Below, piece after piece: positions 9,449 to 38,166 of a stretch of DNA of 64,000 bases. The stretch is taken from contig JASIAM010000290.1 of the NCBI GenBank assembly GCA_030041985.1, positions 1 to 64,000 of the forward strand, given 5' to 3'. The DNA comes from Bryobacteraceae bacterium. GTDB taxonomy: Bacteria > Acidobacteriota > Terriglobia > Bryobacterales > Bryobacteraceae. A model generated the notes under the pieces. It made no database searches. It was given only the letters and a program-made list of their open reading frames with translations, and was not told the DNA's origin. The translations under genes and the position numbers were made by a program. Position 1 is the first letter of the stretch, and each line of letters starts with the position of its first letter.

Positions 9449-9750
9449 CAGCTTCTCTTCTTCTGGGAAATCCGGACCTTCAGTTGGCGGGCAGTTTCGC
9501 GGCGCAGAGCAATTTCCGAGCCATCGACCTGAAACACGCGCGGATCCCCGCCCGGGGCGCTCAACCCCGCGGTAATCCGGACGCCAGGCAGGAACCCGAG
9601 TTCCATCAACCGGCGCGCATCCTCACCCGGCAAATCGATGCAATCCAGAACGGCGGTATCGCCCCGGCCCAAATCGACCAGGGTGCCAGCCAGCGGGCCG
9701 TTTTTGGGGAGGTCTGGCGGTTGGGGGTTGTTGCTACCCACTTGCAACAT
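9448..9750 (-). CDS. feoA: FeoA-family SH3-like protein
   Basis: A small cytosolic partner of FeoB with an SH3-like fold that is needed for Fe(II) uptake. The 100-residue product has the family pattern ...CIDLPGEDARRLMELGFLPGVRI and the closing EIALRRETARQLKV. The ATG at 9750 is chosen because the preceding in-frame codons up to 9840 are not conserved-looking; the resulting N-terminus of about 20 residues is a flexible, proline-containing leader. It is the first gene of the minus-strand iron operon, divergent from the acetyltransferase at 9873 across a 122-base intergenic region. I could not identify a convincing Fur box there. Confidence 0.88.
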   Translation of the reverse strand: MLQVGSNNPQPPDLPKNGPLAGTLVDLGRGDTAVLDCIDLPGEDARRLMELGFLPGVRITAGLSAPGGDPRVFQVDGSEIALRRETARQLKVRISQKKRS

Positions 9751-9872
9751 GCTCGTCTTAGTATGCCTTTGGCCCGGTGGCTTGTCAATGGGCCGGGAGG
9801 GCTGGGAGTGGTTTTGCGGCGCATCACGATGGCATCTCAACTGATGCAGAATAAAGCATATACGAGGAGCTC

Positions 9873-10325
9873 ATGCGATCGCAATACAGGATTCGCCGCG
9901 CGGCCGCGCGAGACCTGGACCGGATCGGGGAGATCGAAACCGCCAGTTTCGGCCGCGAAGCCTATGATCGCAAGCTGTTTGCAGATTACCGCCGAACCTG
10001 CGGCGCCCTGTTCCTGGTGGCCGAACGGCGGGGGAAAATTTGCGCCTATCTGTTAAGTTGCCTGCGCGGCGCGGCGGCAGAGCTGGTTTCCGTGGCAGTA
10101 GCCCCGGAAGACCGCGGCAAAGGCGCTGCTTCGGCGCTGCTCGACAGCCTGCTGCGGCGCTTGCGCCGGCGCGGTGCGCGCCGCCTGCACCTGATCGTAA
10201 GGGTGAGAAACCGGGCCGCGCGCGAGCTCTACGAAAAATTCGGATTCCGCCGCGTGCGCAGAGTGCCCGGTTACTATGAGGATGGCGGCGACGGAATTGC
10301 CATGTCGCGGCCAGTGGACGTTTAG
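9873..10325 (+). CDS. GNAT acetyltransferase, RimI-like
   Basis: A 150-residue N-acetyltransferase of the GNAT superfamily. Motif A, which binds acetyl-CoA, is visible as VAVAPEDRGKGAASALL, and motif B as VRVRNRAARELYEKFGFRRV. The C-terminal YYEDGGDGIAM matches the end of RimI-type ribosomal-protein or peptide N-alpha-acetyltransferases. It resembles RimI in length and layout, but no rimI neighbours (tsaB, tsaD) are present, so the substrate is open. A good ribosome binding site (GAGGAG) precedes the ATG. It is divergent from feoA. Confidence 0.8.
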   Translation: MRSQYRIRRAAARDLDRIGEIETASFGREAYDRKLFADYRRTCGALFLVAERRGKICAYLLSCLRGAAAELVSVAVAPEDRGKGAASALLDSLLRRLRRRGARRLHLIVRVRNRAARELYEKFGFRRVRRVPGYYEDGGDGIAMSRPVDV

Positions 10326-10426
10326 CGGCCAATTACCATGTTCGGCCTTCCACTGTTTTTGTGCCGGCTTTCACCAGGCGTGGGACCTGGCGACGGAATT
10401 GCTCATAACATTGCGAGAGGTTTTCC

Positions 10427-10588
10427 ATGCTTCATTACGCATGGATATTCCTGATCCTGGCGATTATTGCGGCGATCTTCGGCTTCGGAGGCATCGCCGC
10501 CGCTGCGGCCGGAATAGCCAAGGTGTTGTTCTTTATCTTCATAGTCATCTTCATCATTGGCTTAATAGCAGGCCGAAGGGCGATCTGA
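10427..10588 (+). CDS. UPF0391/DUF1328 small membrane protein
   Basis: A 53-residue hydrophobic protein with two transmembrane segments separated by a glycine/alanine-rich turn. The sequence [19 protein letters not shown] is the signature of the UPF0391 (DUF1328, YtjA) family, whose members are small inner-membrane peptides of unknown role, often stress-induced. The ATG is preceded by GAGAGG. It lies about 100 bases after the acetyltransferase and is followed by a hairpin at 10618-10638. Confidence 0.88.
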
Positions 10589-10617
10589 CAGGCAGGGCAT
10601 CCTTTTATCAGGCCAGA

Positions 10618-10638
10618 GCCGGGAGCATCACTCCCGGC
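10618..10638. terminator. GC-rich hairpin between convergent genes
   Basis: A perfect 8-bp inverted repeat, GCCGGGAG-CATCA-CTCCCGGC, lies between the stop of the UPF0391 gene (10588) and the stop of the minus-strand gene at 10651. The position suits a shared terminator. The tract after it on the plus strand (CCTTCCCC) is only weakly T-rich and there is none on the minus strand, so intrinsic termination is uncertain. Confidence 0.5.
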
Positions 10639-10650
10639 CCTTCCCCGTGC

Positions 10651-11463
10651 TTAGCGAACGCCTTGCGCGGGTCCCACGATGTGCGACGGGTCCTGATTGT
10701 CTTCCTGGCAGATATATTCCATGAGTTCCCCTTTCGGATCGAGATGATTGTGGGCGATCAAAGTAAAGGGTTTCTCATAGGCTCCGGGATCATCTATGGT
10801 GATTTCTTCCACGAGATTGCCAAGATCGGGCCGGGTGAATCGTTCGACGACGTGAAGTTTTTCGGTGTGGGGATGGCCGGCAAAATCAAACCAGAACAGG
10901 TCGTTGAATCCGATGGTATCGACCACTAGCGTGTCGCCTTCCCAGTGGCCGATGGATTCGCCAAACCAGGTAGGATCGGGGTCTTTAGAATGCTTGCGTC
11001 CGTCCATAAAGATCTGGCGGTAGCTGTGAATGTTGCCTTCAAACAGGAAGAACAGCTTTCCCGGCGCTGTGGCGATGGTCCAAGGATAAGGAGCCATACG
11101 GGGAACGCCGGTAGGCAAGCAATTCGCCTCGGGGTCCTGATTGGCCTTCCGGCTCTTCATGATGTCTTGGTACTTGGGTTCGAGGATAATCTGATCGCCC
11201 GGTTTGAGGATGCGGGAAATGTCGCCCACCAAGCCGTTATCGGGGCGCCAAACGCCGGAAAAATCGGGCTTGCCATCGGGCAGGCGGGGCGCTGGCCCTT
11301 GTGGCACTTGGGGGCCGCGGCCCCGGCCAGCACGTCCGCCGCGGGCGGGCCCATCGCTCTGAATGCTGCCGCCCGGAGGGGGCAAGGCTCCCGGCGCACT
11401 GGCCGTAGGGGCCTGCGCCCACAACGGCGCGGTCAACAGTAAACTCGCGAAAACCTTAGTCAC
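10651..11463 (-). CDS. exported protein of unknown function, Solibacter-type
   Basis: A 270-residue exported protein starting with GTG (11463) after a GGAG ribosome binding site about 11 bases upstream. Residues 1-17 form a signal peptide (LLLTAPLWAQ). A low-complexity Gly/Pro/Arg linker (about residues 22-58) precedes a conserved domain that opens with LPDGKPDFSGVW. It contains HWEGDTLVVDTIGFND, a pattern found in many secreted paralogues of unknown function in Acidobacteriota. No catalytic motif is evident. It follows the catabolic cassette on the same strand, separated by a 76-base gap with an inverted repeat. Confidence 0.65.
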   Translation of the reverse strand: MTKVFASLLLTAPLWAQAPTASAPGALPPPGGSIQSDGPARGGRAGRGRGPQVPQGPAPRLPDGKPDFSGVWRPDNGLVGDISRILKPGDQIILEPKYQDIMKSRKANQDPEANCLPTGVPRMAPYPWTIATAPGKLFFLFEGNIHSYRQIFMDGRKHSKDPDPTWFGESIGHWEGDTLVVDTIGFNDLFWFDFAGHPHTEKLHVVERFTRPDLGNLVEEITIDDPGAYEKPFTLIAHNHLDPKGELMEYICQEDNQDPSHIVGPAQGVR

Positions 11464-17154: not shown

Positions 17155-18000
17155 ATGTTACGGCCTTGCACCGTCTCTATGCGATTATCCCTGGTGTCCT
17201 TTACCGCCCTTCTGGTTGCCGGCTCAGCCGGGGCGGCGTTTCCGTGGGCGGTATGTTATTCGGGCAATACTTTGCCCGCAGAGTTTCACAAATTCCATCT
17301 GGTTGTGCTGGATAGCAACACTCACCCTCCCCTGGATTTGCTGCGGGGGCGTGAGAGGGAGCTGCTGGGTTATCTAAGCCTGGGAGAAATCGAGAGCCAT
17401 CGTTCCTATTTCAAGGCCGCCCAAGCAGAAGGCCTTCTGCTGCGCGAAAACCCGGCCTGGCGCGGCAGCTTTTACGTGGATTTTCGGGATTCGCGGTGGC
17501 AGCGGCAGGTCACCGAGCAGCTCGTTCCCGGCATTCTGGCCTCCGGCTTCAATGGCATTTTTCTCGACACCCTGGACGATGCGGCGGAACTCGAGCGCAC
17601 CGATCCTCAAAAATACCGGGGAATGATCGCGGCTGCCGCCGGTCTCGTTCGCGGTTTGCGGCGGGAATTCCCGCAAACCACCATTATGGTCAACCGCGGA
17701 TACGACCTTTTGCCTCAGATCGCGCCATTCATCGACATCATCCTGGGCGAGTCCGTGTACACCACGTACAACCCCCAGCACAAAGGTTACGTTCGCGTCC
17801 CGGCTCCCGAATATCACGAGCAAGTCCGTTTGATGCGGCAAGCCCTGCGCTGGAACCCCAAGCTGAAGATCTGTTCGCTGGACTATTGGGACCCCTCCGA
17901 TACAAAGGAAATCCGGCACATTTATCAGGTGGAACGGGCCAATGGATTTGCGCCCTACGTGGCCACACCTGAGTTGGATCGAATCGTGCGCGCGCCATGA
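17155..18000 (+). CDS. pelA: Pel polysaccharide hydrolase, stand-alone PelA N-terminal domain (GH114-like)
   Basis: A 281-residue exported TIM-barrel protein matching the endo-alpha-1,4-polygalactosaminidase domain that forms the N-terminal part of PelA. A signal peptide is followed by the barrel: YLSLGEIESHR, FYVDFRDSRWQRQV, GFNGIFLDTLDDA (a conserved Asp) and ILGESVYTTYNP (a candidate catalytic Glu). In Pseudomonas PelA this domain is fused to a deacetylase; here it is a separate gene, the first of the operon. The start is ATG 17155 or ATG 17179, the latter giving a cleaner signal peptide; neither has a strong ribosome binding site. The last codon overlaps the next gene as ATGA. Confidence 0.85.
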   Translation: MLRPCTVSMRLSLVSFTALLVAGSAGAAFPWAVCYSGNTLPAEFHKFHLVVLDSNTHPPLDLLRGRERELLGYLSLGEIESHRSYFKAAQAEGLLLRENPAWRGSFYVDFRDSRWQRQVTEQLVPGILASGFNGIFLDTLDDAAELERTDPQKYRGMIAAAAGLVRGLRREFPQTTIMVNRGYDLLPQIAPFIDIILGESVYTTYNPQHKGYVRVPAPEYHEQVRLMRQALRWNPKLKICSLDYWDPSDTKEIRHIYQVERANGFAPYVATPELDRIVRAP

Positions 18001-20309
18001 AACTGCAACGGCTCGTACTGGTAATGCTCGCGACCCTCTGGTCTACCAGGCCTATCGCCGCCGCAGAGCGGCTGCCCCGGGTAGTCCCTCGGGTGATTCT
18101 GGCAATCTACGACAGCCGGTATCAGAACGATATCAGAGATACCAAGATTCACCGGCTGCTGGAGATGCCTTTGAATCATCTGGGGCTGGTCGTCCGGTAT
18201 CAGGATCTCAACGCCGGACTTCCAACGCTGGAGCAGTTGCAGGATGTGCGCGGCATAGTGACGTGGTTCCAGTCGGATGCCATGCAAAATCCAGTGGGGT
18301 TCCTCGCCTGGGCCGAAGCAGCCATTGATGCCGGTAAGCGTTTCGTTGTCCTCGGCGATCTCAGTGTGACCAGGAACCTCCAGGGTCAGGCAACCCAAAC
18401 CGCGCTTATTAACCGGTTTCTGGCAAAACTGGGGCTTCGCGCCGACGACTGGGTGCCGGTTACTTATAACTTGCGAATCGTCTACAAAGACCCGCGAATG
18501 ATGGATTTCGAGCGCTCGTTGCCAGCCATTCTGCCGTCGTTTGACGCCGTCAAAGTGATCGATCGCAGCGTCCGCGTGCATTTAATGGCGGGGAAGGCCA
18601 ACGACGCGCGAACCGGCAGTGCACTCATAGTCACAGGCCCTCACGGCGGCTACGCGGCGAGCGGCTACACCCATTTCGCAACATACGCTCCTCCAGACGC
18701 AAATTCTCGAACTGCCGAGGTCCACCTGCAGTGGTACTTGAACCCGTTCGAGTTTTTTCGGTTGGCTTTTGCCGCCGATGAGGTTCCGAAGCCGGACACG
18801 ACGACAGTTTCCGGCCGCAGGATCTACTACAGCCATATCGACGGCGATGGCTGGAGGAACTTAACCGAAGTCGCACGTTACCGGGGAGAGCGGATCTCCT
18901 CTGCCGAAGTGATTTTGCGGGAAACCATCAGGCCATTTCCGGATCTGCCGGTTACGGTGGGACCCATCGCCGGCGATCTGGACCCGCACTGGTTCGGAAA
19001 CCAGGAATCGTTGCGCGTTGCCCGCGAGATCCTGTCGATTTCATGGGTTGAGGCGGGCAGTCATACCTACAGCCATCCTCTGGATTGGGAAACTCTCTCG
19101 CTCGAGGCCAAAGATGCCACCGCTAGTCAAAAAGGCCTCCGGAGCTGGTGGGAACAGACCTGGTGGCCGCTGTGGGAAAGAGTCGCCGAGCCGTGGTCGG
19201 ATAAGGACACGAGTGAAGATAAGCCGTCCGATCACCAACCGAAATTTCGCCGCGGCCAATCGCGGCTCCGCAGTTATGACCTCTACCCGTTCGACGTCAA
19301 TCAGGAGATCGGCGGCTCCATTGACTTTATCAATCACCTGTTGCCCGCCGGCAAACGCGTCCAACTGCTGCAATGGTCGGGCACCACGCTCGAATCTCAG
19401 TCGGTCATGGAAGCGACGCGGAGAGCTGGCGTGCGCAACATCAACGGTGGCGATACCCGTTTCGATCCGGAGTTCGACTCTTACGCATGGGTGGCGCCGC
19501 TGGGGCGGCAAGTCGGCCGTTACCGGCAGATTTATAGTTCGGAAAGCAACGAGAATACCTACACGAACCTCTGGAACGAGCGATATTTCGGTTTCCGCTA
19601 CCTGATCCAAACCTTGCGCAACACGGAATCGCCTATCCGCGTAAAACCGTTCAATCTGTACTACCACATGTTCTCTGGTGAAAAGGATCCCGGTCTTCAG
19701 GCAGTTCTCGGCAATCTGGCCTATGCGCGGTCCCAGGAACTGGCTCCCATCACGGCTAGTCAATACGCGGCCATTGCCGATGGCTTCTTTTCGGCGACTT
19801 TCACCGAGATCGCGAATCATCGCTGGCGTGTCGAGAATCGCGATGGCCTGAACACCGTACGTTTCGACCATGCCGAAAAGCAAGCGGTGGACTGGGCAAA
19901 CTCGCGGGATGTGATCGGGCAACGGCACTATCAAGGCAGTCTCTACGTGGCGCTCGACCCGGCCGGCGAGGCGCCTATCGTGGCCCTCCGAGATACGAAC
20001 GTCAGCGTCCCAAAGAGCGGGGACAGAGCCTATTTGATCCAGAGCCGCTGGCTGATATCTCATCTCCAAATTGATGCCGGCGGATTCTCATTCACCGCCC
20101 ATGGATTCGGACCGGGAGAAATGGAGTGGCACGCCCGGCCCGCAGCCCGGTACACCATTGAAGTCTCTTGCCGCAATGTTCCACCTCGCCAAATCGAGGT
20201 CGCTGCCGGCCTCGACGGGACACTGCGATTCACCCTACCCGATGGACAACCCGCGGGGGCCCCGATCCCCGAGGAGGTCACCGTGAAAGAGACGGTGAAC
20301 AAACTATGA
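17997..20309 (+). CDS. pelA: Pel polysaccharide deacetylase, stand-alone PelA C-terminal part
   Basis: A 770-residue exported protein corresponding to the rest of PelA. After a signal peptide (residues 1-23) comes a Rossmann-like region (about 30-260), then the polysaccharide deacetylase domain. Its metal and catalytic residues are visible in HIDGDGW (Asp) and GSHTYSHP (the HxxxH pair), matching the PelA deacetylase motifs. A C-terminal beta-rich domain follows. The enzyme partially deacetylates the GalNAc-rich polymer in the periplasm, giving the cationic Pel that is exported. The ATGA overlaps at both ends tie it to the hydrolase gene and to pelB. Confidence 0.85.
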   Translation: MKLQRLVLVMLATLWSTRPIAAAERLPRVVPRVILAIYDSRYQNDIRDTKIHRLLEMPLNHLGLVVRYQDLNAGLPTLEQLQDVRGIVTWFQSDAMQNPVGFLAWAEAAIDAGKRFVVLGDLSVTRNLQGQATQTALINRFLAKLGLRADDWVPVTYNLRIVYKDPRMMDFERSLPAILPSFDAVKVIDRSVRVHLMAGKANDARTGSALIVTGPHGGYAASGYTHFATYAPPDANSRTAEVHLQWYLNPFEFFRLAFAADEVPKPDTTTVSGRRIYYSHIDGDGWRNLTEVARYRGERISSAEVILRETIRPFPDLPVTVGPIAGDLDPHWFGNQESLRVAREILSISWVEAGSHTYSHPLDWETLSLEAKDATASQKGLRSWWEQTWWPLWERVAEPWSDKDTSEDKPSDHQPKFRRGQSRLRSYDLYPFDVNQEIGGSIDFINHLLPAGKRVQLLQWSGTTLESQSVMEATRRAGVRNINGGDTRFDPEFDSYAWVAPLGRQVGRYRQIYSSESNENTYTNLWNERYFGFRYLIQTLRNTESPIRVKPFNLYYHMFSGEKDPGLQAVLGNLAYARSQELAPITASQYAAIADGFFSATFTEIANHRWRVENRDGLNTVRFDHAEKQAVDWANSRDVIGQRHYQGSLYVALDPAGEAPIVALRDTNVSVPKSGDRAYLIQSRWLISHLQIDAGGFSFTAHGFGPGEMEWHARPAARYTIEVSCRNVPPRQIEVAAGLDGTLRFTLPDGQPAGAPIPEEVTVKETVNKL

Positions 20310-23300
20310 AGCGGCTTCACTACGCGGTGTTCCTCTGCCTGCTGACCCTCGGTTTCGGTGCAAGCCTGCTGCTCGTGCCCGGCCGCGATGAACTGGGCCT
20401 GCTGTATTTCAAAGCCCGCAAGAATAACGAGGCACAGTCCATCCTCGAGCAACGGCTTCGGGCCGGTGAGCACTCTATCGACATAGTCATCCCACTCGCC
20501 GACCTGTATATCCAGTCCGGCGACGTGGACCGCGCCTTGGCACTGCTCAGACGCTTTCCGGCCCGGCCCGGCCAACGCATTGCCTTAGCCGAAAGAATCG
20601 GACAATTCGAACGGTACGGACAGCTTACCCGCGAATACCTGCATACCTTGGAACAGATCAACCGCATGAAAAGGTCCGCGGAAACCTTGCGTGAGTTAGC
20701 AGGCTTTTACCGGTACTTCAACGAGGTGGGGCCGCTCGCAGCAACATTAGAGGAATTGAACCGGCATTACTCTGCCACTCCCGGCGAGCTGATGGAACTG
20801 GCGAATCTCGAAGCGATCGGCGGACAATTTGCCCGGGCCGCATCCACACTGGAACTGTTGGAAAAGCGCTATCCCAAGGCAATCACGGGTGACACCGTGG
20901 AGTTTCTGATCAGTGTGTTGCTCGATGCCGGGGAAGGCGGCCGGGCATTAGAGCGAGCTACCCGGTGGCTTGGTCAGCACTCCACACCCAACGAAGCAGT
21001 CCGGCTCGCGGGCCTGTTGGATTCGCGCGGCAAACCCGCTCTCGGTTTGCGGCTCCTGGAGCCATTGGCCGCAATCACCGACTCCAACCCTTTACTGCTT
21101 TCGGAGTGGGTCCATCTGCAGATTGCTACGGGAGCTTCCGATACCGTTTTTGAGCACCTGAACGGCTTGCGGGCCGCGAAGCGGCTTCCTGAGGAGATGA
21201 CGGAGACCTTTTTCGAATTGGCATTCGCCCGCCACGATACGGAGTTGGCGATCCGGGCAGCAGAAGAACGAGGTTTTGCGCGGCTACCGGGCTGGCTGCT
21301 GACGAATCTGGCGGAAGCCGCTATGGCGGAAAAGCGCGAGGACCTGGTGCGGCAACTGGGCGCCAGTCTGAAGCCGGATTTTCTACGAACCAAGCCGCTT
21401 CTGGCGGCCAGGCTCGCGATGGCACGCGGAGATCATGCCGATGCCGAAAACTGGCTGCGGCAGGCTGCGGCCGATCCCCGCCTTCCCGATGGCGACCGTC
21501 TCGCGCTTGCGGAAAATTATCTACAAGCCGGCCATCAGGGCGATGCACTCGATCAGGTCTCGCAGGTGCGCCTGGAAAACCTCCCAGCGGACGGGGTGAT
21601 GGAGGCGGCGCGCATTTATCAGAACCTCGGGAAGGCCAGCGAAGCCGTCGGGCGCTTTGTATCGTTTCGGGCGCGCGGCACAGAGGCTGCCGCCGCATGG
21701 GCATTGCTCGCGGCAAGTTCGGGGCGCGGCCGCGAGGCCGCGACATGGCTTGACTCGTTGTCCGGACCAGTAGTTTCCGAGGGCCTTCTCAAGGAGCTGT
21801 ATTACGCGGCAAGCGATCACAAGGACGCTCAGCTTGCGCTGGTATGCGCCCAGCGGCTATATCAGCAGCACCCGGCCGATCCCAATCGCCTGCTCCTCGC
21901 AACGGCCTTAACCGATTCCGGCAAACCGGGGGAGGCTCTGCCGCATTTGCGAGCCTTGCTTGCGCGGCCGGTACAAACGGGTGTGCCACAGGCCACATTG
22001 GAGGAAACCTATACCACTGCGCTGCGCGCCGCCGCAAGGAAGTCCGGGCCGGCGACGACGCCTCAGCTCCGCGCTGAGCTTCGCGAGTTTTGGACCGCGA
22101 AATTGAAGCATCCGGGCGTCGACGAAAAGCAACGGCTTGATTTGATCTACGGCCTTTTGGAGATTCAGGCTTGGAACGAGGCTCTCCCGCCGCTGGCAGA
22201 TTTGGCGCGCAAGCGCCCCGAGCTGACGCCACTGTACATCGAAAGCGCTGCCGAAGCCGGGCGCAAGCAGGAAGCGGTCACCTTTCTCAAGGCGCAACTT
22301 GACCGGCCCGATCTCACGGCTGCCAATCGCGAGGCGTTTCTGTACGCCCTGATGGAACACGGCGGTTACGAAGTATCCTTGCCGTACATCCGCCAGTTGG
22401 CTTGGGCTTCTGTAGGCCCGTGGGTCGCGGCCTACGAAGACGCTCTTCGGAAACTCAACCGAACCTCCGAGCTGGCTGCATCTTGGAAACACCGCGCGGC
22501 ACTGCCGGGCGCATCGGTCGAAGAGAGACGATCGCTCGCCTTCAACCTGATCGAGACCGGCCGCAAGGAATGGGCTTTGGCGATTTTTCGAGATTTGGCC
22601 CAAACTGCCAAACCCGACTCTACAGATGTTGCCAACCTGCTGTTTTTGTGGGGGCCCAAACCGGGAGCCGATGCGGTCGCGTGGCTGGAACAGCGCGCCC
22701 GGGAGTCCACCGGCTCGGAGCGCGCCGCTTGGTGGAGTCACCTGTTGGAACTGGGCGCCGCGGATCGTGTGGCCGCCATGGCACAAGGTAATCTGCCGCC
22801 TTCCGGGCAGGGCGGCGTACTCCTTGGGGCCTACCTTCGTGCCCTGATCCAGCTTGGCCAAAGCCGGCCTTTTGCAGACGCAATCGCGCGTGAGATGCCC
22901 GCTCTGCAGGATTCGGATAAGGCCCGCGAATTGGCTCGCTTGGCCCGCGATTCCGGTATCGATCGAGCCGCCGAATATGCCTACTCTCGCCTGTGGACAC
23001 TCGAGCCGCAGGACCCCGAAGCCCTCCACTGGCTGGGAACCTACGCATTCTCCCGCGCCAATTACTCCACAGCGGAAGAGCGATTGCGGGTGTTGCTCAG
23101 CGTGACCGAAGGCGCTTACGACGACAATTTTTATTACGCTGAAATCTTGTGGCGCAAAGGCGATCGCTCCGCCGCGCGCATCTACTACGCCCGCGCTTTG
23201 CGGGCCATCGAGCGTATTCCCGACGCACCGCCCGGCGCTCTCGCGGAGCATGCCCAAGCGCTGGCGCGTTGCGGGTTTATCGAGCGATCCCTAAAGGAAT

Positions 23301-24565
23301 TCCGTGCCTTGCTTGCCGCCTGGCCCGACAAGCAAAATCTGAGGGCTGATTTCGTGGCCCTGCTGCTCGAAAACGAGCGGTATGGCGAAGCGCGGAGCGT
23401 GCTGAACGCCGCTGGCAGCGCGGATGGGAGCCGCCTGACCGAATTGCGCGCTCAATTGTTGGCCGACACGGCTCAAAAGAAGGAAGCACTAGATTTGCTT
23501 TCGGACTTCACGGATGCTCATCCCGATGCTGCGAGCGCCTTATCCAGCCTGGCGCTCCTCGATGAAGGCGTAACGCGCAACCGCCAGGCGCAGGCGCTAC
23601 TGGCTCAGGCAGCGGCTCTCGAGCCGCTGAACGAAGATTTCCACAAAGCGCTCCAGGACCTCGAGCAGGAGCAAGCGCCGCAGGCCGATACCGGCGTCAC
23701 GCGCCGCACTATCCAAGGCCAGCAGAGCGAAGATTTGATGCGCGTGATCGGCAATGAAGTTCTCGGCGGCGCTTTTCATCTGCACCTGGAGTATGACCAG
23801 GATGCCGTTTCGGTGAACAGTGTTACCACGCCGAATAGAGTCGTAGGACCGTTCCGCGGAGTGCTACATCAGGGCGAAGCTAGCGTTCAATACGAAACCG
23901 AAAACGGACTGCGCGTGGAAGGCGATGCTTACGCGAGCGATGCCGGACCAGGAGCCGGAGCTGCAGTCGTGGTCCCTGATTCGCAGGGAACGACCACCGT
24001 GCGCCTGGATCTGAACCGCCCCTATTGGGAATTTGCCCAGTCGCTGGCCGATGGCGGCACCCGCAGCCGCGTCGAGGTCACCCGTGAGACGGTTCTCAGC
24101 CCCCGATTATCCGCCAGCTTGACGGCTGCGCTAAACCGTTACAGTCTGCGACAGGTTTCCGATGCCGCGTCCAGTGCGGCGGCTCAGGGTCGTGTCACCT
24201 ACCGCCTTCTGCCGCATCCGCAACTGAGCCTTGAGTACAACCTCGATGCCGAATACAAGCTATCAGTAGCCACGCTCCCTGCCGTGAATGGACCCCAATT
24301 CCACCCTCTGCCCCTGCTGAACCGCGAAGTCCATTCCGCGGGCGTGATGATAGCCGGGCAACCCGTGCGCCATCTGCAGGCCACCGTGGCAGCCGGATAC
24401 GCCGTCGATCGCCTGGGCGGGCGCGCTCCCTTCGTGAGCGCGAATCTCAACTACAAGGACTGTGGCCGGTTCGGCGCCGGAATCGATTTCGACCGCAGAC
24501 TCTATTTCCTCAACACCGCCCAAACGGTAACTACCTTCGGAGGCCACTTTTCATTCCGTTTTTGA
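20306..24565 (+). CDS. pelB: Pel export protein PelB, TPR scaffold plus outer-membrane barrel
   Basis: A 1419-residue protein with an N-terminal membrane anchor (about residues 5-22), a very long run of TPR-like helical repeats (about 30-1110), and a C-terminal beta-barrel (about 1150-1419) ending in phenylalanine (HFSFRF), the usual outer-membrane insertion signal. This matches PelB, which holds the PelA deacetylase in the periplasm and forms the outer-membrane export pore. The ATG at 20306 is chosen because it overlaps the preceding stop (ATGA) and precedes the membrane anchor; an upstream in-frame start at 20168 lies inside the deacetylase gene. There is no pelC gene after it: pelD starts 9 bases later. 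Confidence 0.88.
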   Translation: MKRLHYAVFLCLLTLGFGASLLLVPGRDELGLLYFKARKNNEAQSILEQRLRAGEHSIDIVIPLADLYIQSGDVDRALALLRRFPARPGQRIALAERIGQFERYGQLTREYLHTLEQINRMKRSAETLRELAGFYRYFNEVGPLAATLEELNRHYSATPGELMELANLEAIGGQFARAASTLELLEKRYPKAITGDTVEFLISVLLDAGEGGRALERATRWLGQHSTPNEAVRLAGLLDSRGKPALGLRLLEPLAAITDSNPLLLSEWVHLQIATGASDTVFEHLNGLRAAKRLPEEMTETFFELAFARHDTELAIRAAEERGFARLPGWLLTNLAEAAMAEKREDLVRQLGASLKPDFLRTKPLLAARLAMARGDHADAENWLRQAAADPRLPDGDRLALAENYLQAGHQGDALDQVSQVRLENLPADGVMEAARIYQNLGKASEAVGRFVSFRARGTEAAAAWALLAASSGRGREAATWLDSLSGPVVSEGLLKELYYAASDHKDAQLALVCAQRLYQQHPADPNRLLLATALTDSGKPGEALPHLRALLARPVQTGVPQATLEETYTTALRAAARKSGPATTPQLRAELREFWTAKLKHPGVDEKQRLDLIYGLLEIQAWNEALPPLADLARKRPELTPLYIESAAEAGRKQEAVTFLKAQLDRPDLTAANREAFLYALMEHGGYEVSLPYIRQLAWASVGPWVAAYEDALRKLNRTSELAASWKHRAALPGASVEERRSLAFNLIETGRKEWALAIFRDLAQTAKPDSTDVANLLFLWGPKPGADAVAWLEQRARESTGSERAAWWSHLLELGAADRVAAMAQGNLPPSGQGGVLLGAYLRALIQLGQSRPFADAIAREMPALQDSDKARELARLARDSGIDRAAEYAYSRLWTLEPQDPEALHWLGTYAFSRANYSTAEERLRVLLSVTEGAYDDNFYYAEILWRKGDRSAARIYYARALRAIERIPDAPPGALAEHAQALARCGFIERSLKEFRALLAAWPDKQNLRADFVALLLENERYGEARSVLNAAGSADGSRLTELRAQLLADTAQKKEALDLLSDFTDAHPDAASALSSLALLDEGVTRNRQAQALLAQAAALEPLNEDFHKALQDLEQEQAPQADTGVTRRTIQGQQSEDLMRVIGNEVLGGAFHLHLEYDQDAVSVNSVTTPNRVVGPFRGVLHQGEASVQYETENGLRVEGDAYASDAGPGAGAAVVVPDSQGTTTVRLDLNRPYWEFAQSLADGGTRSRVEVTRETVLSPRLSASLTAALNRYSLRQVSDAASSAAAQGRVTYRLLPHPQLSLEYNLDAEYKLSVATLPAVNGPQFHPLPLLNREVHSAGVMIAGQPVRHLQATVAAGYAVDRLGGRAPFVSANLNYKDCGRFGAGIDFDRRLYFLNTAQTVTTFGGHFSFRF

Positions 24566-24574
24566 GAGCTCGTT

Positions 24575-26014
24575 ATGAACACACCTGAACCCAAACCCGC
24601 CTCCCGCAGCCTGCTCCGCGGCAGCATTTTCGGCCTGCGTTATACGGCGCTATTCGAAATCGGCCTGTTGCTTGGCTTAACACTGGCGGTGGACCGGTTA
24701 TTTTTCGACGGCACGCGCTTTCGTTCACTCGCGCTACACCCGTTTTGGATTCCCGTGCTGCTGCTGAGCGCTCAATATGGGACCAATACCGGATTGCTCG
24801 CGGCGATCGCCTCAACGATCGCGCTGTTGGCCGGAAATCTTCCGCCGCAGGGCCTTCTGGAGGATCGCTTTACCTGGCTCTTCGAAACTACTCGTGTGCC
24901 GATGCTGTGGTTTCTCGCAAGTGTCGTGCTGGGGGAACTCCGTACCCGCCAGCTTCGGGAGGCGGATAAGATCCGTGGCGATCTCGGCGAAGCATGCCGG
25001 CGCGAAAACGTCCTGGTGGACGCTTATAAGCGCCTGGAAACAGCCAAGGAAGCCTTGGAAACCCGCGTGGCGGGGCAATTGCGAACGGCCCTGGCGCTAT
25101 ACGAAGCGGCGAGAGGAATCGAGAAGCTCGAACCCTCCGAAGTGCTCCTGGGAGTGTCCACTCTGGTGCGCTCCGTGATGAATCCCGAGCGGTTTTCGCT
25201 CTACCTGCTGCAGAACGGCGCCCTGGAACTGGTCCTCGCAGAGGGCGGGACGCCCGAGGATGTTCTTCCCCGGTTCTACTATCCGGAAACGCGGCTTTTT
25301 CAGGAAACGATTGGCCGCCAGCGGATCTTGTCGGTTGCGAACCCCGAAGATGAGGACGTGCTCGCGGGGGTTGGCATGATTGCGGCGCCGCTGGTCGCAA
25401 CGGCTTCGGGACGGATTGTGGGCATGCTGAAGATCGAGAAGTTGGGATTCCTCGATTTGAATTTCAGCAACGTGCAGACATTTCAGGTGCTGTGCCGATG
25501 GATCGGGGCGGCTTATGAAAATGCGCTTCGCTATCAGGCGGCGCGTGCTGATGCCGTCGTGAATTCCGAAACCGAGCTGTTCGCTTATGGTTTCCTGGCG
25601 CGCCAATTGGCCATGCTCGAGTTGCTGGCCAGACGCATCGGATTCGACGTGACCATGATCGTGATGCGGCTGGAAAACCCCGAGGATTTGACGGCGGAGC
25701 AGCAAGCCCGCGTCCCGGTGGCGCTCAGCCGCACCGTCAAAATAGTCCTGCGGCGCAGTGATCTGGCCTTCGACTATCGCCGCACCGGCCAGGAGTTCGC
25801 ACTGGTGCTGCCCGCGACGCGCGTGGAAGGTGCCAGGATCGTGATCGGAAAACTCGAAGAGGCCCTTGGCGAAGAGCTCAAAACTGAAGCACCGCAAGCG
25901 CGATTCTCGTTCGGTGCACAGGCGATTCACGATACCAGGGACAACTCAGGCGAGGCGCTCGAGTCCGGTCCCTCCGCGCAAGAGTTACCCAGTGGCGAGT
26001 TGCAACATGTCTGA
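24575..26014 (+). CDS. pelD: PelD, c-di-GMP receptor of Pel synthesis
   Basis: A 479-residue inner-membrane protein with four transmembrane helices (about residues 20-125), a short coiled-coil (about 130-165), a GAF domain (about 175-325) and a degenerate GGDEF domain (about 335-455) without a GGDEF motif. The inhibitory-site motif RxxD is kept as R393-R394-S395-D396, equivalent to the RxxD that binds cyclic di-GMP in Pseudomonas PelD. R416 or R421 could supply the second arginine. Binding the second messenger is known to switch on polymerisation by PelDEFG, so this gene predicts post-translational control by c-di-GMP here. Its end overlaps pelE by 8 bases. Confidence 0.88.
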   Translation: MNTPEPKPASRSLLRGSIFGLRYTALFEIGLLLGLTLAVDRLFFDGTRFRSLALHPFWIPVLLLSAQYGTNTGLLAAIASTIALLAGNLPPQGLLEDRFTWLFETTRVPMLWFLASVVLGELRTRQLREADKIRGDLGEACRRENVLVDAYKRLETAKEALETRVAGQLRTALALYEAARGIEKLEPSEVLLGVSTLVRSVMNPERFSLYLLQNGALELVLAEGGTPEDVLPRFYYPETRLFQETIGRQRILSVANPEDEDVLAGVGMIAAPLVATASGRIVGMLKIEKLGFLDLNFSNVQTFQVLCRWIGAAYENALRYQAARADAVVNSETELFAYGFLARQLAMLELLARRIGFDVTMIVMRLENPEDLTAEQQARVPVALSRTVKIVLRRSDLAFDYRRTGQEFALVLPATRVEGARIVIGKLEEALGEELKTEAPQARFSFGAQAIHDTRDNSGEALESGPSAQELPSGELQHV

Positions 26015-27101
26015 AGGACGGGTTTTTGCCAATGCCGCTAAAGTAGCAGCGGTCACCGCGGCGTCTGCGGCCCTGGAATGTTCCCTTGCGTATCTGTGGC
26101 TCACAGCACAAGTGCATACGCCAGTTGCCATCGCGGCTCATAGCTTGGTAGTCGCAGCCATCGCGCTGGCGACACGGTGCCCGCGAGCATTGTGGCCGGT
26201 CCCCTTAGCGAAGGCCTCTCAGGACATTCGACTGCCAATCCTGGTGACGGTCAGCACGGCGGCGCTCGGCCCGATCGGCGCCCTGGGGAGCTTGTTCACA
26301 CTGCTTCTGGCGCGGCAATACATGCGCCGCGCCTTACCGTTCGAAGAATGGTACCGCTCGTTATTTCCGGATACGCAGGATACCGAAAACCGCAAAGTGG
26401 TCGATCAGATCGCCGCGGCCGACGGGAGAGAAACTGACGCCGTAACCGCCTTCTCAGATGTGCTTTCGTTTGGCAGTTTGCAGCAGAAGCAGGACTTGAT
26501 CGCGCTGGTTAGCAGCCAGTTCCGCCCCGCATTCGGTCCGGTTCTGAAACGTGCCTTGCATGATGATCACAGCGCCATCCGGGTGCAAGCCGCTACCGCC
26601 ATGAGCAAGCTGGAAAACACCATCCTCCAACGAACCATGGAGTTGACTCGCCAGGTTCGCGCCAATCCAGGGGATACGGAAGCGCTGCGGGCTCTCGCCC
26701 AACATTACGACGGTTGCCTTTTCTGCGGCATCCTCGATACACGGCGCGAAGAGGATTTTCTCACCGAGGCATTGGCCGTCTATCGGGAATGCCTCGCCCG
26801 CGAGCCTGGCGATCTTTCCACCAGGCTTGCCGCGGGGCGCCTGCTCTTGCGCAGTAAACGCTTCCGCGAAGCCGCCGAGTGTTTTCAACAAGCCGCTGCT
26901 CCGGATTCGGAAAAACCCCAGGCGGCGCTGTGGTACATGGAAAGCCTCTTCCAATTAGGCCGATTTGCGGAAATCCGCCGCCTGGCCCGCGACTGGGAGT
27001 CCCGGCACGCATCGTCCGCCGAGTATCCTCCCGAAGCCCTGCAAGCGGTACGGCTGTGGGCGGGGGTTCGTGCGGCGGATGCCCCCGCGGAGGCATCATG
27101 A
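26007..27101 (+). CDS. pelE: PelE, membrane TPR protein of the Pel synthase
   Basis: A 364-residue protein with two or three hydrophobic N-terminal segments (about residues 8-100) and a cytosolic TPR domain (about 200-340; repeats such as EALAVYRECLAREPGDLSTRLAAG). This is the layout of PelE, which with PelD, PelF and PelG forms the inner-membrane synthase complex. The ATG at 26007 overlaps the pelD stop; the longer opening from 25866 is inside pelD. A HEAT-like stretch (HDDHSAIRVQAATAMSKL) lies before the TPRs. The stop overlaps the pelF start as ATGA. Confidence 0.82.
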   Translation: MSEGRVFANAAKVAAVTAASAALECSLAYLWLTAQVHTPVAIAAHSLVVAAIALATRCPRALWPVPLAKASQDIRLPILVTVSTAALGPIGALGSLFTLLLARQYMRRALPFEEWYRSLFPDTQDTENRKVVDQIAAADGRETDAVTAFSDVLSFGSLQQKQDLIALVSSQFRPAFGPVLKRALHDDHSAIRVQAATAMSKLENTILQRTMELTRQVRANPGDTEALRALAQHYDGCLFCGILDTRREEDFLTEALAVYRECLAREPGDLSTRLAAGRLLLRSKRFREAAECFQQAAAPDSEKPQAALWYMESLFQLGRFAEIRRLARDWESRHASSAEYPPEALQAVRLWAGVRAADAPAEAS

Positions 27102-28639
27102 ACGAGAGCCGTCAAGCCGATGTCTGCCTGATACTCGAGGGGACCTATCCTTATGTCGCCGGCGGCGTCTCCATCTGGACCCATCACCTCATTCAGGCGC
27201 AATCTCACCTGTCGTTCGAGTTGGTTTGCCTCGTCCCGGAGCGTGCGGAACTGGAGCCGCGCTACCAAGTGCCACCCAATGTTACCGGAATCACCAATGT
27301 GCGTGTTGGCTCGCTTCCGCCCGGAGCGCAACCGCGCGGTTTGAATGGCCTGTGCGAACGCCTGGAGGGACCGCTCCTGCGCCTCGAAGCAGGCGGCGGT
27401 TTGGCGGAAATCGAGTCCATCCTGAGCGAGCTTTTGCCGTATGGTTCCAGCCTCGGGCGCCGCGCGCTGCTGAACTCGCCCGAAGCCTGGCAACTGATTC
27501 TGCGCATGTATCAGGCGACCCATCCGGAAAGCCCATTCCTGGATTATTTCTGGAGCTGGCGGGCGATTCTGGGAGGCATCTTTTCGATATTGCTCGCTCC
27601 CCTGCCCTCCGCCCGCATGTATCACCCGGTGTCTACTGGCTATGCCGGGCTTTACGCCGCGCGGGCGCATCTCCAAACCGGGCGGCCCGTCCTACTCACC
27701 GAACACGGCATCTATACCAACGAGCGGCGCATCGAGATCGCCATGGCCGACTGGCTGTACCGGCCTGCGGAAAGCGGCTTGACGCTGCGGAAATCAGCAC
27801 GCGATTTACGGCTCATGTGGTTTCATGCGTTCGCTGGTTATTCGCGCGCCTGTTATGAGGCAGCCGCCCGCATCATCACGCTCCATTCCGGCAATCAGTA
27901 CTTTCAGCTCGCCGACGGAGCGCCAAAAGAGAAGCTCGCCATCATTCCCAATGGAGTCGATTACCACCGCTTCTCGGCGTTAGCGGACCGGCGTGCGAAT
28001 CATCCGCCGGCCATCGCCCTGATCGGCAGGGTAGTTCCGATTAAGGACGTAAAGACCTTTATCCGGGCGGCTGCCATCGTGCGCGAGCTCGTGCCTGAGA
28101 TCCGGATATGGGTGCTCGGGCCGGCCGACGAGGATCCGCAATATTTTGCGGAGTGCCAGGCTTTGGTCGCTTACCTGGGCCTGGAGGACTGCGTCGAATT
28201 TACCGGTCCGGTGTCCGTGCCTGACTACCTGCCGCGGTTGGATGTGCTGGTATTGACCAGTATCAGCGAAGCGCAGCCGCTGGTGATGCTGGAAGCGGGT
28301 GCGGCGGGGGTTCCTAGCGTCGCCACAGATGTCGGCGCCTGTCGGGAAATGATCTATGGCGGCCGCGATGAAGAGTCACCTTTAGGACCTGCCGGCGCCG
28401 TGACACCGCTTGCCAATCCGACCGCCACCGCGCATGCGGTAGCCCGCCTGCTACTCGAACCGGACGAATGGCAGCGGGCCAGCCGGGCCGCCCGTGAGCG
28501 TGTCCGGCGCTATTACGACACGCCCTCGCTCGACCGTTCCTATCGCGAACTTTACGAGTACTGGTGCTCCGTGCCGGATCGCGCGGCGCCTGCGGGCCTT
28601 ATCGGAGCCGAGTCTATCTCCGGAAAGGATGCAGCCTGA
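27098..28639 (+). CDS. pelF: PelF, glycosyltransferase (GT4) polymerising Pel
   Basis: A 513-residue cytosolic glycosyltransferase of family GT4. The start VCLILEGTYPYVAGGVSIWTH is the PelF hallmark. The second Rossmann domain shows AIIPNGVDYHRF, IALIGRVVPIKDVKTF and the nucleotide-sugar-binding pair in SEAQPLVMLEAGAAGVPSVA (the E-x7-E motif). PelF uses UDP-sugars, UDP-GalNAc in the characterised systems. The operon has no epimerase gene for that precursor, though galT lies 1.5 kb downstream on the other strand. The start and stop overlap the neighbours (ATGA and TGATG). Confidence 0.92.
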   Translation: MNESRQADVCLILEGTYPYVAGGVSIWTHHLIQAQSHLSFELVCLVPERAELEPRYQVPPNVTGITNVRVGSLPPGAQPRGLNGLCERLEGPLLRLEAGGGLAEIESILSELLPYGSSLGRRALLNSPEAWQLILRMYQATHPESPFLDYFWSWRAILGGIFSILLAPLPSARMYHPVSTGYAGLYAARAHLQTGRPVLLTEHGIYTNERRIEIAMADWLYRPAESGLTLRKSARDLRLMWFHAFAGYSRACYEAAARIITLHSGNQYFQLADGAPKEKLAIIPNGVDYHRFSALADRRANHPPAIALIGRVVPIKDVKTFIRAAAIVRELVPEIRIWVLGPADEDPQYFAECQALVAYLGLEDCVEFTGPVSVPDYLPRLDVLVLTSISEAQPLVMLEAGAAGVPSVATDVGACREMIYGGRDEESPLGPAGAVTPLANPTATAHAVARLLLEPDEWQRASRAARERVRRYYDTPSLDRSYRELYEYWCSVPDRAAPAGLIGAESISGKDAA

Positions 28640-30021
28640 TGGCGGGAATCGGCTTTGAACTGCGCAAGCTTCTCGCGCGCGAAGATCTTATCGGTATTGC
28701 CGAAGGATATGGCTATGCAGCGATCGCAACCAGTGGCCCATGGCTATTCACCATCGTGGCGCTTAGCGCTATTTTGCTGCTAGGGGCTCCTACTGCGCTG
28801 CCTTCCGATCTCGCGGCTTTCCGCCTGATCATCGTCTACAATTTCTCCTTTTCGCTGGTGTTGACCGCCCCGGTGGCCATCGTGATGACCCGCTATCTGG
28901 CGGATTCCATCCATGCCAAAAACGTCGAACAGGCCCCGGCAGCGCTTCTGGGCGGATTGCTGATCACATATGCCGCCGCGGCCCCGGTCGCCGGCGCGCT
29001 TTATGCATGGTACGCCCACCTCGATCGCATGGCGCGTTTCGCCGCCTTCGTGGATTTTCTGCTGATCGCGGGTATCTGGACGGTTAGCGTGTTTCTAACG
29101 GCCCTCAAGGACTATCGGGCTCTGGTGCTGTCATTTGGTTTTGGCATGGCGGTGGGTATCGTCTGCGCCGCTTTCCTCGCCGGGTCGTGGGGAGCGCCGG
29201 GCATGCTACAGGGTTTCAATATCGGTCTGGTGGTTACCCTTTTCAGCCTGATTGCCCGCATTTTTGCGGAATATCCCACGCGGGCCAGCCAGCCGTTCGT
29301 CTTTCTGCCATATTTCCGCAAATACTGGGACTTGGCCTTGGCCGCGCTCGCCTACAGCGTTGCCATTTGGGTTGATAAATGGCTTATGTGGCTGGCGCCC
29401 GAACACCAGATTCTCCCCATTGGATTTGTCTCGTTCCCTGAGTACGAGAGCGCCATGTTTCTGGCATACCTTTCCGTAGTGCCCTCGCTTGCAGCCTTCA
29501 CTTTGACCATCGAAACCGGCTTCTTCGAAAAGTACACGCGGTTCTACGACGACATCCTGCGCCATGTGAGTTACGGCAAAATCGACGCGAACCACCGGGA
29601 CCTGATCCAATCGCTGATGCAAGGCGCACGTAATTTCGTGATCCTCGAGGGTTCAGTCTCATTTATCGGAATCCTGCTAGCGCCGCAGATCTTTGATTTT
29701 CTGGGAATCAGTTACCTCGAGCTCGGTATCTTCCGCCTGGGCCTGCTGGGGGCCTTTTTCCATAGCGGATTGCTGTTTCTGCTGATCGTGCTGAGTTATT
29801 TCGATCTCCGCCGCGTCACCTTAGCAATTTCCAGTCTGTTTCTGGTCGCGAATTGCCTGTTCACTCTGGCAACTCTAAAGTTAGGATTTGCGTACTACGG
29901 CTATGGATATGGCCTCTCCGCGCTGGTGGCATTCGCCGCCGCGTTCCTCGCGACGGCACATTTCCTCGATCGATTGCCCTACCAGGCTTTCGTCCGCAAC
30001 AATTCCTCGGTAGCGCAATAG
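28639..30021 (+). CDS. pelG: PelG, polytopic membrane subunit of the Pel synthase
   Basis: A 460-residue inner-membrane protein with about twelve hydrophobic segments. The start MAGIGFELRKLLAREDL is the family signature, followed by GYGYAAIATSGPWLF. PelG is distantly related to polysaccharide flippases and works with PelD, PelE and PelF to extrude the nascent polymer across the inner membrane. The ATG overlaps the pelF stop by one base. It is the last gene of the operon and ends 6 bases from a convergent permease gene, so no dedicated terminator fits between them. Confidence 0.92.
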   Translation: MAGIGFELRKLLAREDLIGIAEGYGYAAIATSGPWLFTIVALSAILLLGAPTALPSDLAAFRLIIVYNFSFSLVLTAPVAIVMTRYLADSIHAKNVEQAPAALLGGLLITYAAAAPVAGALYAWYAHLDRMARFAAFVDFLLIAGIWTVSVFLTALKDYRALVLSFGFGMAVGIVCAAFLAGSWGAPGMLQGFNIGLVVTLFSLIARIFAEYPTRASQPFVFLPYFRKYWDLALAALAYSVAIWVDKWLMWLAPEHQILPIGFVSFPEYESAMFLAYLSVVPSLAAFTLTIETGFFEKYTRFYDDILRHVSYGKIDANHRDLIQSLMQGARNFVILEGSVSFIGILLAPQIFDFLGISYLELGIFRLGLLGAFFHSGLLFLLIVLSYFDLRRVTLAISSLFLVANCLFTLATLKLGFAYYGYGYGLSALVAFAAAFLATAHFLDRLPYQAFVRNNSSVAQ

Positions 30022-31477: not shown

Positions 31478-32464
31478 CTATTGTATGTCACGCGGCTCGG
31501 TTTCCCGCAGTTCGCGCGCGGTCGTTTCCGGCACCGTGTCATTCAGGAAAGTTCCCGCCCCGCTCTCTACCCCCGCCAGGTATTTCAACTTGGTGGCGCT
31601 CCTTTGGACCGGATAGAAGTCAATATGGAAATGAAAGTACGGATGCTCCCCTTTGACCGGTGGGTGGCGCAAAATCATCATCAACGGCATGGGAAAGCCA
31701 AATAGATTGTCGTACTTCATACGCACAGTTTTGATGATGGCCGCGAGGCCCGCTGCTTCCGTTTCCGTCAGCTCCGGCAAGCCGGATAAGTGGCGCCGCG
31801 TACAGATCTGTACTTCTGCCGGAAAGCGCGCGGCATAGGGCACGTACGCCACAAAGCAGTCGTTGCGGGTCACAATGCGCGTGCCGTCGGCGAGTGCCTG
31901 CCGCAGCAGTTCGCAGTAGATGCACCGGCTGTCGCGGCGGAAATACGCAGATGCGGATTCCAGTTCGCGTTCCATGAGCGGGGGAACGAAAGGGAAAGCA
32001 TATATCTGACCGTGCGGATGCGGCATGGTTACGCCAATTGCTGCACCGGTGTTTTCGAAAATGTAAATGTAGCGAATATCAGGATTGGCGGCCAGTTCCC
32101 GATACCGCGCACTCCAGACGTGGATCACCTTCAGCCAGTGAGCCGTCGAAAGTTGCGCGGGCGTAATGTGATGGTTCGAGTGATACAGCACCACATCGGT
32201 TGTTCCGCGCGCCCCGGTCGAAGCGAACAGGCCTGCGCCGGCGCCGTCCGCGGCGGGGTCGCGTGACGAAAACTCAAAAGGTGGATTATCTAACCGGAAG
32301 GCCGCGAAATCGTTGGGATACAGATACACATCGTACTGGCCGGGCACGCGGCCGGACCCCGGGCAGAAGGGACACCAATCCCCCGGCATTTGCGGCCGGC
32401 CCTGACGCTCGTCCGCAATCACCACCCACTCCCGCAACAGCGGGTGCCAACGCAGTTCGTTCAC
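31478..32464 (-). CDS. galT: galactose-1-phosphate uridylyltransferase
   Basis: A 328-residue enzyme exchanging UMP between UDP-glucose and galactose 1-phosphate (Leloir pathway). The zinc pair CPFC is near residue 31 and the active-site motif HPHGQ spans 149-153, with H151 as the expected nucleophile. The C-terminal HFHIDFYP segment is also family-typical. The start is GTG at 32464. No galK or galE is adjacent. Supplying UDP-galactose-type precursors to nearby Pel synthesis is possible but unsupported. Confidence 0.88.
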   Translation of the reverse strand: MNELRWHPLLREWVVIADERQGRPQMPGDWCPFCPGSGRVPGQYDVYLYPNDFAAFRLDNPPFEFSSRDPAADGAGAGLFASTGARGTTDVVLYHSNHHITPAQLSTAHWLKVIHVWSARYRELAANPDIRYIYIFENTGAAIGVTMPHPHGQIYAFPFVPPLMERELESASAYFRRDSRCIYCELLRQALADGTRIVTRNDCFVAYVPYAARFPAEVQICTRRHLSGLPELTETEAAGLAAIIKTVRMKYDNLFGFPMPLMMILRHPPVKGEHPYFHFHIDFYPVQRSATKLKYLAGVESGAGTFLNDTVPETTARELRETEPRDIQ

Positions 32465-37874: not shown

Positions 37875-37881
37875 GAAGCTT

Positions 37882-38104
37882 CGCGGTAGAGGTGCGGCGG
37901 CCATCAGTAGCCGGGCGGTCATTCCGACTGCGCGCCGGAGCTTGGTGAAAGGGGCCGGGGGCGCCCGTTGGGGCCTTCCGCCGAAACCGCGGGCGGATCG
38001 CGCAGGCCGTCCGGTTGGGGAGTCTGGTTAATACCGGCTCACTGTCACCCGTTGTGCGGAATGTCCTAACAATTTGGCTTCCGCCGGGGTGGAGCGCTAT
38101 CGGG
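37882..38104 (+). ncRNA. lysine riboswitch (L box)
   Basis: The leader of the DAP operon carries the conserved landmarks of the lysine riboswitch in order: GGTAGAGGTGCG (37885-37896), AGTA (37906-37909), GAAAGGGG (37947-37954), GCCGAA (37980-37985), CACTGTCACCC (38040-38050) and GGTGGAGCGCTA (38088-38099). P1 forms from CGCGGTAG (37882-37889) with CTATCGGG (38097-38104), and P5 from CACCC with GGGGTG. The aptamer is about 223 nt, and 62 nt separate it from the first start codon. No obvious terminator stem with a U-run follows, so control of translation initiation is likely. The call rests on memory of the consensus; a covariance search would settle it. Confidence 0.85.
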
Positions 38105-38166
38105 AACGTAGAACGCCTTCTGCGCGGCTGCCTCCCCTTTGCCTCCTCTCCCTTTTACGAGTACTT

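Follow-up and report, generated by a model that had tools for sequence, protein, structure and literature searches.

A Pel-type exopolysaccharide operon with PelA divided between two genes and without pelC in a Bryobacteraceae genome

The stretch of Bryobacteraceae DNA analysed here (the window, 64,000 nucleotides) holds at 17155-30021, on the plus strand, seven tightly coupled genes, all with open frames, that probably encode a functional, c-di-GMP-responsive, synthase-dependent exopolysaccharide system of the Pel type, exporting its product through the PelB barrel without PelC. The observed basis is the gene content, the homology of the products, their catalytic and inhibitory-site motifs, the lack of any PelC in the assembly and the recurrence of PelC-less operons among relatives. 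The barrel fold of PelB is that of a structural model. From the gene products we infer that the polymer would be a Pel (GalNAc/GalN) matrix and, by analogy with other exporters, that PelB alone would suffice at the outer membrane. PelC is essential in Pseudomonas and regarded as a hallmark of Gram-negative Pel, its exact role being unclear (PMC12141448). The ring is missing from most of the related operons described below, so PelC may not be common to all Pel export systems.

Gene content and layout of the operon

The genes follow the order hydrolase, deacetylase, pelB, pelD, pelE, pelF and pelG. The first, pelA-H (17155 or 17179 to 18000), encodes a hydrolase of the endo-alpha-1,4-polygalactosaminidase type with a signal peptide and a GH114 fold, equivalent to domain 1 of PelA. 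The second, pelA-DA (17997-20309), encodes a stand-alone part of PelA, again with a signal peptide, in which a mixed alpha/beta region, a CE21-type deacetylase and beta-rich regions are predicted. The pelB gene (20306-24565) specifies 1419 residues with an uncleaved hydrophobic anchor at the N-terminus, a long TPR scaffold and a predicted 16-strand outer-membrane barrel at the C-terminus. Downstream lie pelD (24575-26014; transmembrane helices, a long helix, a GAF domain and a degenerate GGDEF domain), pelE (26007-27101; an inner-membrane segment and TPRs), pelF (27098-28639; a GT4 glycosyltransferase/polymerase) and pelG (28639-30021; an inner-membrane exporter), all on the plus strand. From 5' to 3', the junctions are overlaps of 4 and 4 bases, a gap of 9 bases between pelB and pelD, and overlaps of 8, 4 and 1 bases. 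The pelB start at 20306 is the ATG within an ATGA overlap, and 26007, 27098 and 28639 are the true starts of pelE, pelF and pelG. The gap (24566-24574), the only positive one between operon genes, occupies the position of pelC in canonical operons and is too short for a gene. A spacing of 9 bases had been given in an earlier, sequence-only reading of this DNA, and the coordinates 24565 and 24575 agree with it.

The same reading took the operon to be of the Pel type, and the profile searches bear this out. PelF scored 458 bits against NF038011 (cut-off 100) and PelG 404.5 bits against PF16933 (cut-off 29), both far over the curated cut-offs, and the two PelA halves match PelA structure 9cgy. 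Judged by these scores, the Pel-family matches are far beyond chance. Against the relative L020, changes at third codon positions outnumber those at second positions by a factor of two to four, a pattern indicative of purifying selection in every operon gene tested. Like Pseudomonas aeruginosa pelABCDEFG, the window has the order PelB, D, E, F, G, both PelA activities, a TPR-barrel PelB and a degenerate-GGDEF PelD with an RxxD motif. It differs in that PelA is two proteins instead of one and in lacking the PelC ring. Reference structures from Pseudomonas were PelA 9cgy (P. thermotolerans), PelBC 9h80 and PelD 4dn0.

PelA has been described as a full-length protein across phyla (PMC12022489). 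Instead of one four-domain protein, the window has two genes overlapping by ATGA. The hydrolase matched GH114 (PF03537) at E 7e-18 with 65 bits (cut-off 27) and aligned with PelA 5tcb/9cgy from residue 11 to about 247-268, and the pelA-DA product aligned with residues 254-826 of 9cgy (E 7.5e-55). Since the halves map to separate stretches of 9cgy, with the break between 247 and 254, the cut falls at a domain boundary and not inside a domain, and the division of PelA in two that had been proposed holds. The columns of the hydrolase catalytic Asp (FLDTLD) and Glu (LGES) are invariant in the alignment, and the deacetylase keeps the metal and catalytic motifs HIDGDG and SHTYSH. It had also been suggested that a separate hydrolase could be regulated or lost independently. 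Independent loss is seen among the relatives; the ATGA overlap of pelA-H and pelA-DA argues against separate regulation in the window.

PelD matched GAF_3 (PF13492) at E 7e-12. Its GGDEF domain is degenerate (RTGQEF) and carries RRSD at the inhibitory site (residues 393-396); of 40 relatives, 31 retain RxxD. The AlphaFold2 model (pLDDT 87, pTM 0.55) matches diguanylate cyclases, and PelD itself (4etx and 4dn0) at E 2e-8 to 4e-8. PF16963 (PelD_GGDEF) found no match in the window's own genome, and the controls were without a match too. With the layout of transmembrane segment, helix, GAF and GGDEF, the degenerate GGDEF, the RRSD motif and the model match taken together, control of the operon by c-di-GMP is likely. 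PelD of L064 (7703-8704) and L035 (7669-8658) lacks the C-terminal GGDEF-like domain and so, by sequence, a c-di-GMP site. PelE was assigned from TPR_19 (E 1.5e-7), an N-terminal hydrophobic stretch and its place between pelD and pelF. TPR families were over cut-off, but no PelE-specific curated family matched; a PelE-seeded profile gave matches in 88 loci.

The operon is isolated, with unrelated genes to either side. Upstream are amidohydrolase and ABC transporter genes and downstream an amino acid permease gene and galT, all on the minus strand. The galT gene (galactose-1-phosphate uridylyltransferase, 31478-32464), two genes downstream of pelG, has a possible tie to UDP-hexose supply. A GalE over cut-off is encoded in the genome and could supply UDP-GalNAc. 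No c-di-GMP riboswitch or other RNA was found upstream of the operon; a lysine riboswitch lies at 37879-38107 on the plus strand of the window (53.8 bits).

The PelB barrel and the search for PelC

Pfam detected only TPRs and a weak porin match in PelB, and the barrel therefore called for a separate test. The barrel region covers about residues 1126-1418. A barrel profile of the lineage (253 columns) matched the window's PelB at E 8e-78 and 54 other loci. The last 539 residues of PelB, modelled by AlphaFold2 with 34 relatives, gave a pLDDT of 94.2 and a pTM of 0.87, with 14 TPR helices followed by 16 strands. In a Foldseek search the best PDB match of the model was 9h80 (PelB of the PelBC complex, E 7e-14), followed by BcsC, with PgaA also high. 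The model is thus in keeping with the outer-membrane barrel formerly assigned to the PelB C-terminus, and its closest PDB structure is PelB. When the lineage barrel was compared with three canonical barrels by hhalign, no more than 81 columns could be aligned (E 1e-5), so the likeness to PelB rests on the structural match. BcsC and PgaA, which rank below PelB in the structure search and serve the cellulose and PNAG synthases, likewise combine a TPR scaffold with a 16-strand barrel and have no lipoprotein ring.

Summed over the whole barrel, the charge of the Acidobacteriota copies runs from about neutral to positive (+1 to +13). In this they differ from the anionic barrel of P. aeruginosa, and the polymer could be less cationic. 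For a link between the net charge of the barrel and PelC, a plain test gave a borderline p of 0.051 and correction for kinship left nothing. A conserved domain of about 100 residues (B2N) precedes the TPR-barrel, as in L009 at 9235-10815. It occurs in split PelB proteins and in some single ones. We rejected it as a stand-in for PelC: it occurs in PelC-bearing and PelC-less loci alike, and the window's PelB has no such domain.

A PelC profile was built from 13 PelC proteins of canonical and split-lineage operons. It matched the solved PelC structures (9h80, 5t11, 5t10 and 5t0z) at E 4e-36 to 7e-45 and is therefore a valid PelC detector. Run over 14 whole genomes, it gave 236-260 bits in the two PelC-bearing genomes, while the other 12, that of the window among them, stayed at about 32 bits or below. 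The best match in the window's genome, an assembly of 355 contigs that is 98.17% complete, had 28 bits. Matches of 28 and 20 bits were TolB_N-like domains of winged-helix-type regulators, one of them broken; the pseudogene behind the false match (G000 C271:3685-3999, L104) encodes a winged-helix-type regulator with a TolB-like domain and has in-frame stops. The LpoB and CsgG families, searched as disguised forms of PelC, had no matches in the window's genome. A lipobox scan of the whole window found no lipoprotein; as a control, the scan found the PelC genes of L009, L023 and L027 and missed that of L012. The absence of PelC from the operon, as the sequence-only reading had it, is confirmed by the 9-base junction and the lack of a lipobox protein in the window, and the genome-wide search that it called for found no distant pelC, within the limits of a 98% complete assembly. 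PelC-less genomes besides that of the window include G223, L020 and L021 and the isolates Azospirillum oleiclasticum L031 and Paracraurococcus L042.

Relatives with divided PelA

We collected about 90 operons by tblastn in plasmids and a PelF-alignment scan of 84,980 genomes and annotated them with profiles; gene calling in the relatives was mechanical. The sample is made up of the operons whose PelF best matches that of the window, and the counts accordingly apply to the split lineage and not to Pel operons at large. In the PelF+PelG tree of 54 operons, fused and divided PelA are separated by one change. The presence of PelC on the same tree is patchy and takes at least five changes. The split lineage spans Acidobacteriota and Proteobacteria; divided PelA, by this tree, marks a large pel lineage and is not peculiar to the window or to Acidobacteriota. 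A PelB-type barrel and pelD without PelC were found in 39 loci, the window included, and in 37 of these the gap between barrel gene and pelD is 144 bases or less. Sixteen split-lineage loci have PelC, most of them from Azospirillum. Within the lineage as sampled, absence of PelC is the commoner state. PelB, too, is two proteins in most of the lineage, one with an anchor and TPRs and the other with TPRs and the barrel; in the Acidobacteriota copies it remains one long protein.

Within Acidobacteriota pel is rare, with a strong PelG in 2 of 396 genomes; further Acidobacteriota MAGs that carry pel are L020, L021, L022 and L052. An AU test of all Acidobacteriota copies, including G223, as one clade gave p 0.395, which neither rejects nor proves the grouping. 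The window's architecture recurs in several genomes. The nearest operon is that of the Terriglobia MAG CP_BM_RX_50 (L020/L109), which has the identical gene order, divided PelA, a single PelB, no PelC and a PelF 71% identical to that of the window. Its flanking genes differ, and the window and L020 have no flanks in common beyond the operon. The occurrence of the window's operon in another neighbourhood in L109 (G396 C64) indicates that the operon is mobile as a unit or that the flanks were rearranged. Azospirillum pel operons on plasmids (L009, L010) share the divided PelA and the PelF/PelG lineage (about 54% PelF identity), but their PelB is split into TPR and TPR-barrel proteins and PelC, annotated as GNA1162 family, is present. 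Existing annotation names only pelF and pelG as Pel in L009, and L010 is unannotated.

Are both PelA activities always retained once they are encoded apart? In seven split-lineage genomes (L049, L050, L042, L034, L028, L065 and L033) no deacetylase half was found anywhere, and six of them have the hydrolase gene in the operon. For L049 and L050 the absence counts for less, as these MAGs are small (1.8 Mb). All seven operons also lack PelC. Loss of the CE21-type deacetylase from a genome would predict a fully acetylated polymer. The deacetylase protein of the Bryobacterales MAG SJ270 (L052:1429-2988) aligns with its profile in two stretches only, 22-269 and 551-752, which means that the catalytic core is missing. 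No PelA-type hydrolase was found in that genome beyond a 21-bit match. By these matches the L052 pel operon, from the same phylum as the window, has neither PelA modification activity, and the PelA halves have been lost separately among the relatives and, once, both together. In Methylobacterium planeticum (L071:4097-6490) the deacetylase active site is degenerate, with HIDGDG changed to HVESEG and SHTYSH to ASYTRP, in an operon with a Wza-like exporter.

Bundalovic-Torma et al. found that pel operons can undergo fission of pelB, loss of loci and rearrangement (PMC7112194), and Whitfield et al. described Gram-positives with a separate hydrolase and deacetylase and no PelC (PMC7112168). In Bacillus cereus pelDEADAFG, as in the window, the deacetylase has no hydrolase domain, the hydrolase has its own gene and there is no PelC (PMC7112168, PMC13254593). 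B. cereus differs in having no outer membrane and no PelB, in a membrane-anchored deacetylase encoded between pelE and pelF, and in a divergently transcribed hydrolase gene (PMC7112168, PMC13254593). While pelB fission and the divided activities of Gram-positives without PelC are already known, we found no description in the open-access literature of a lineage of Gram-negative pel loci that has the PelB barrel but lacks PelC. Operons without PelC could not have come up in an earlier survey, whose query was PelC itself (PMC7112168).

Proposed export route and rival explanations

In the mechanism that we propose, PelF would polymerise UDP-GalNAc and the chain would pass through the PelD-PelE-PelG inner-membrane complex once c-di-GMP occupies the RRSD site of PelD. 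Along the TPR scaffold of PelB, the stand-alone periplasmic deacetylase would partly deacetylate the chain and the stand-alone hydrolase would trim it. The 16-strand PelB barrel would then export the chain directly, with no PelC ring, comparable to BcsC with cellulose and PgaA with PNAG.

A lipoprotein or periplasmic protein encoded elsewhere, with no recognisable homology to PelC, might take over its role. The superfamily to which PelC belongs (LpoB, GNA1162, CsgG-like) is loose and diverges fast, and high divergence of PelC itself has been reported (PMC7112194). On the other hand, the gulf between about 32 bits at most in the 12 PelC-less genomes and 236-260 in the controls, the silence of the LpoB and CsgG families and the lack of a lipobox protein in the window make such a substitute unlikely. 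Alternatively, the operon could make a related but different polymer, for example a fully acetylated one or one of another sugar, that needs no PelC ring. Several PelC-less genomes without any deacetylase, L052 without hydrolase and deacetylase core, and the non-anionic Acidobacteriota barrels are in line with this. We nevertheless consider a different polymer a doubtful explanation, as the window keeps the catalytic motifs of both PelA activities, those members of the hydrolase family that have been characterised cleave chains of alpha-1,4-galactosamine (PMC7112168), and the link to charge is gone after kinship correction.

That PelC is present but lies within an assembly gap is conceivable for a genome in 355 contigs, yet very improbable: the pelB-pelD junction is continuous in the sequence, and PelC is equally absent from the independent G223, L020 and L021 and from the isolates L031 and L042. 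Decay of the operon into a non-functional state, suggested by the loss of pelC, which the model system cannot do without, is barely credible in view of seven open frames with overlapping starts and stops, preserved catalytic motifs, the purifying codon pattern in the tested genes and the same architecture in several genomes. Export through the PelB barrel without PelC remains our preferred reading for the window. Its wider form we regard as evenly balanced between true and false: that a large Gram-negative pel lineage exports through a PelB-type barrel without the PelC ring, that PelC came or went there at least five times as an accessory, that some members have also dispensed with the deacetylase or with both PelA activities, and that PelB export is accordingly independent of the cationic, PelC-guided route of Pseudomonas.

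Naturally occurring PelB exporters, some having PelC and some lacking it, are similar enough to be exchanged for one another, which allows a direct test of what the ring does. The divided PelA offers ready-made enzymes of a single activity, and the genomes without one or both halves point to the modification steps that may be dispensable for export. The outer-membrane part of the operon varies further among the relatives. A Wza-type polysaccharide export protein replaces the PelB barrel in L011, L013, L017, L095, L099 and L028 (Rhodobacterales, Microvirga), and two tandem pelC paralogues lie between pelB and pelD in Chromatiales-type MAGs (L023:5859-7144, L027:6182-7404 and L032:6109-7376).
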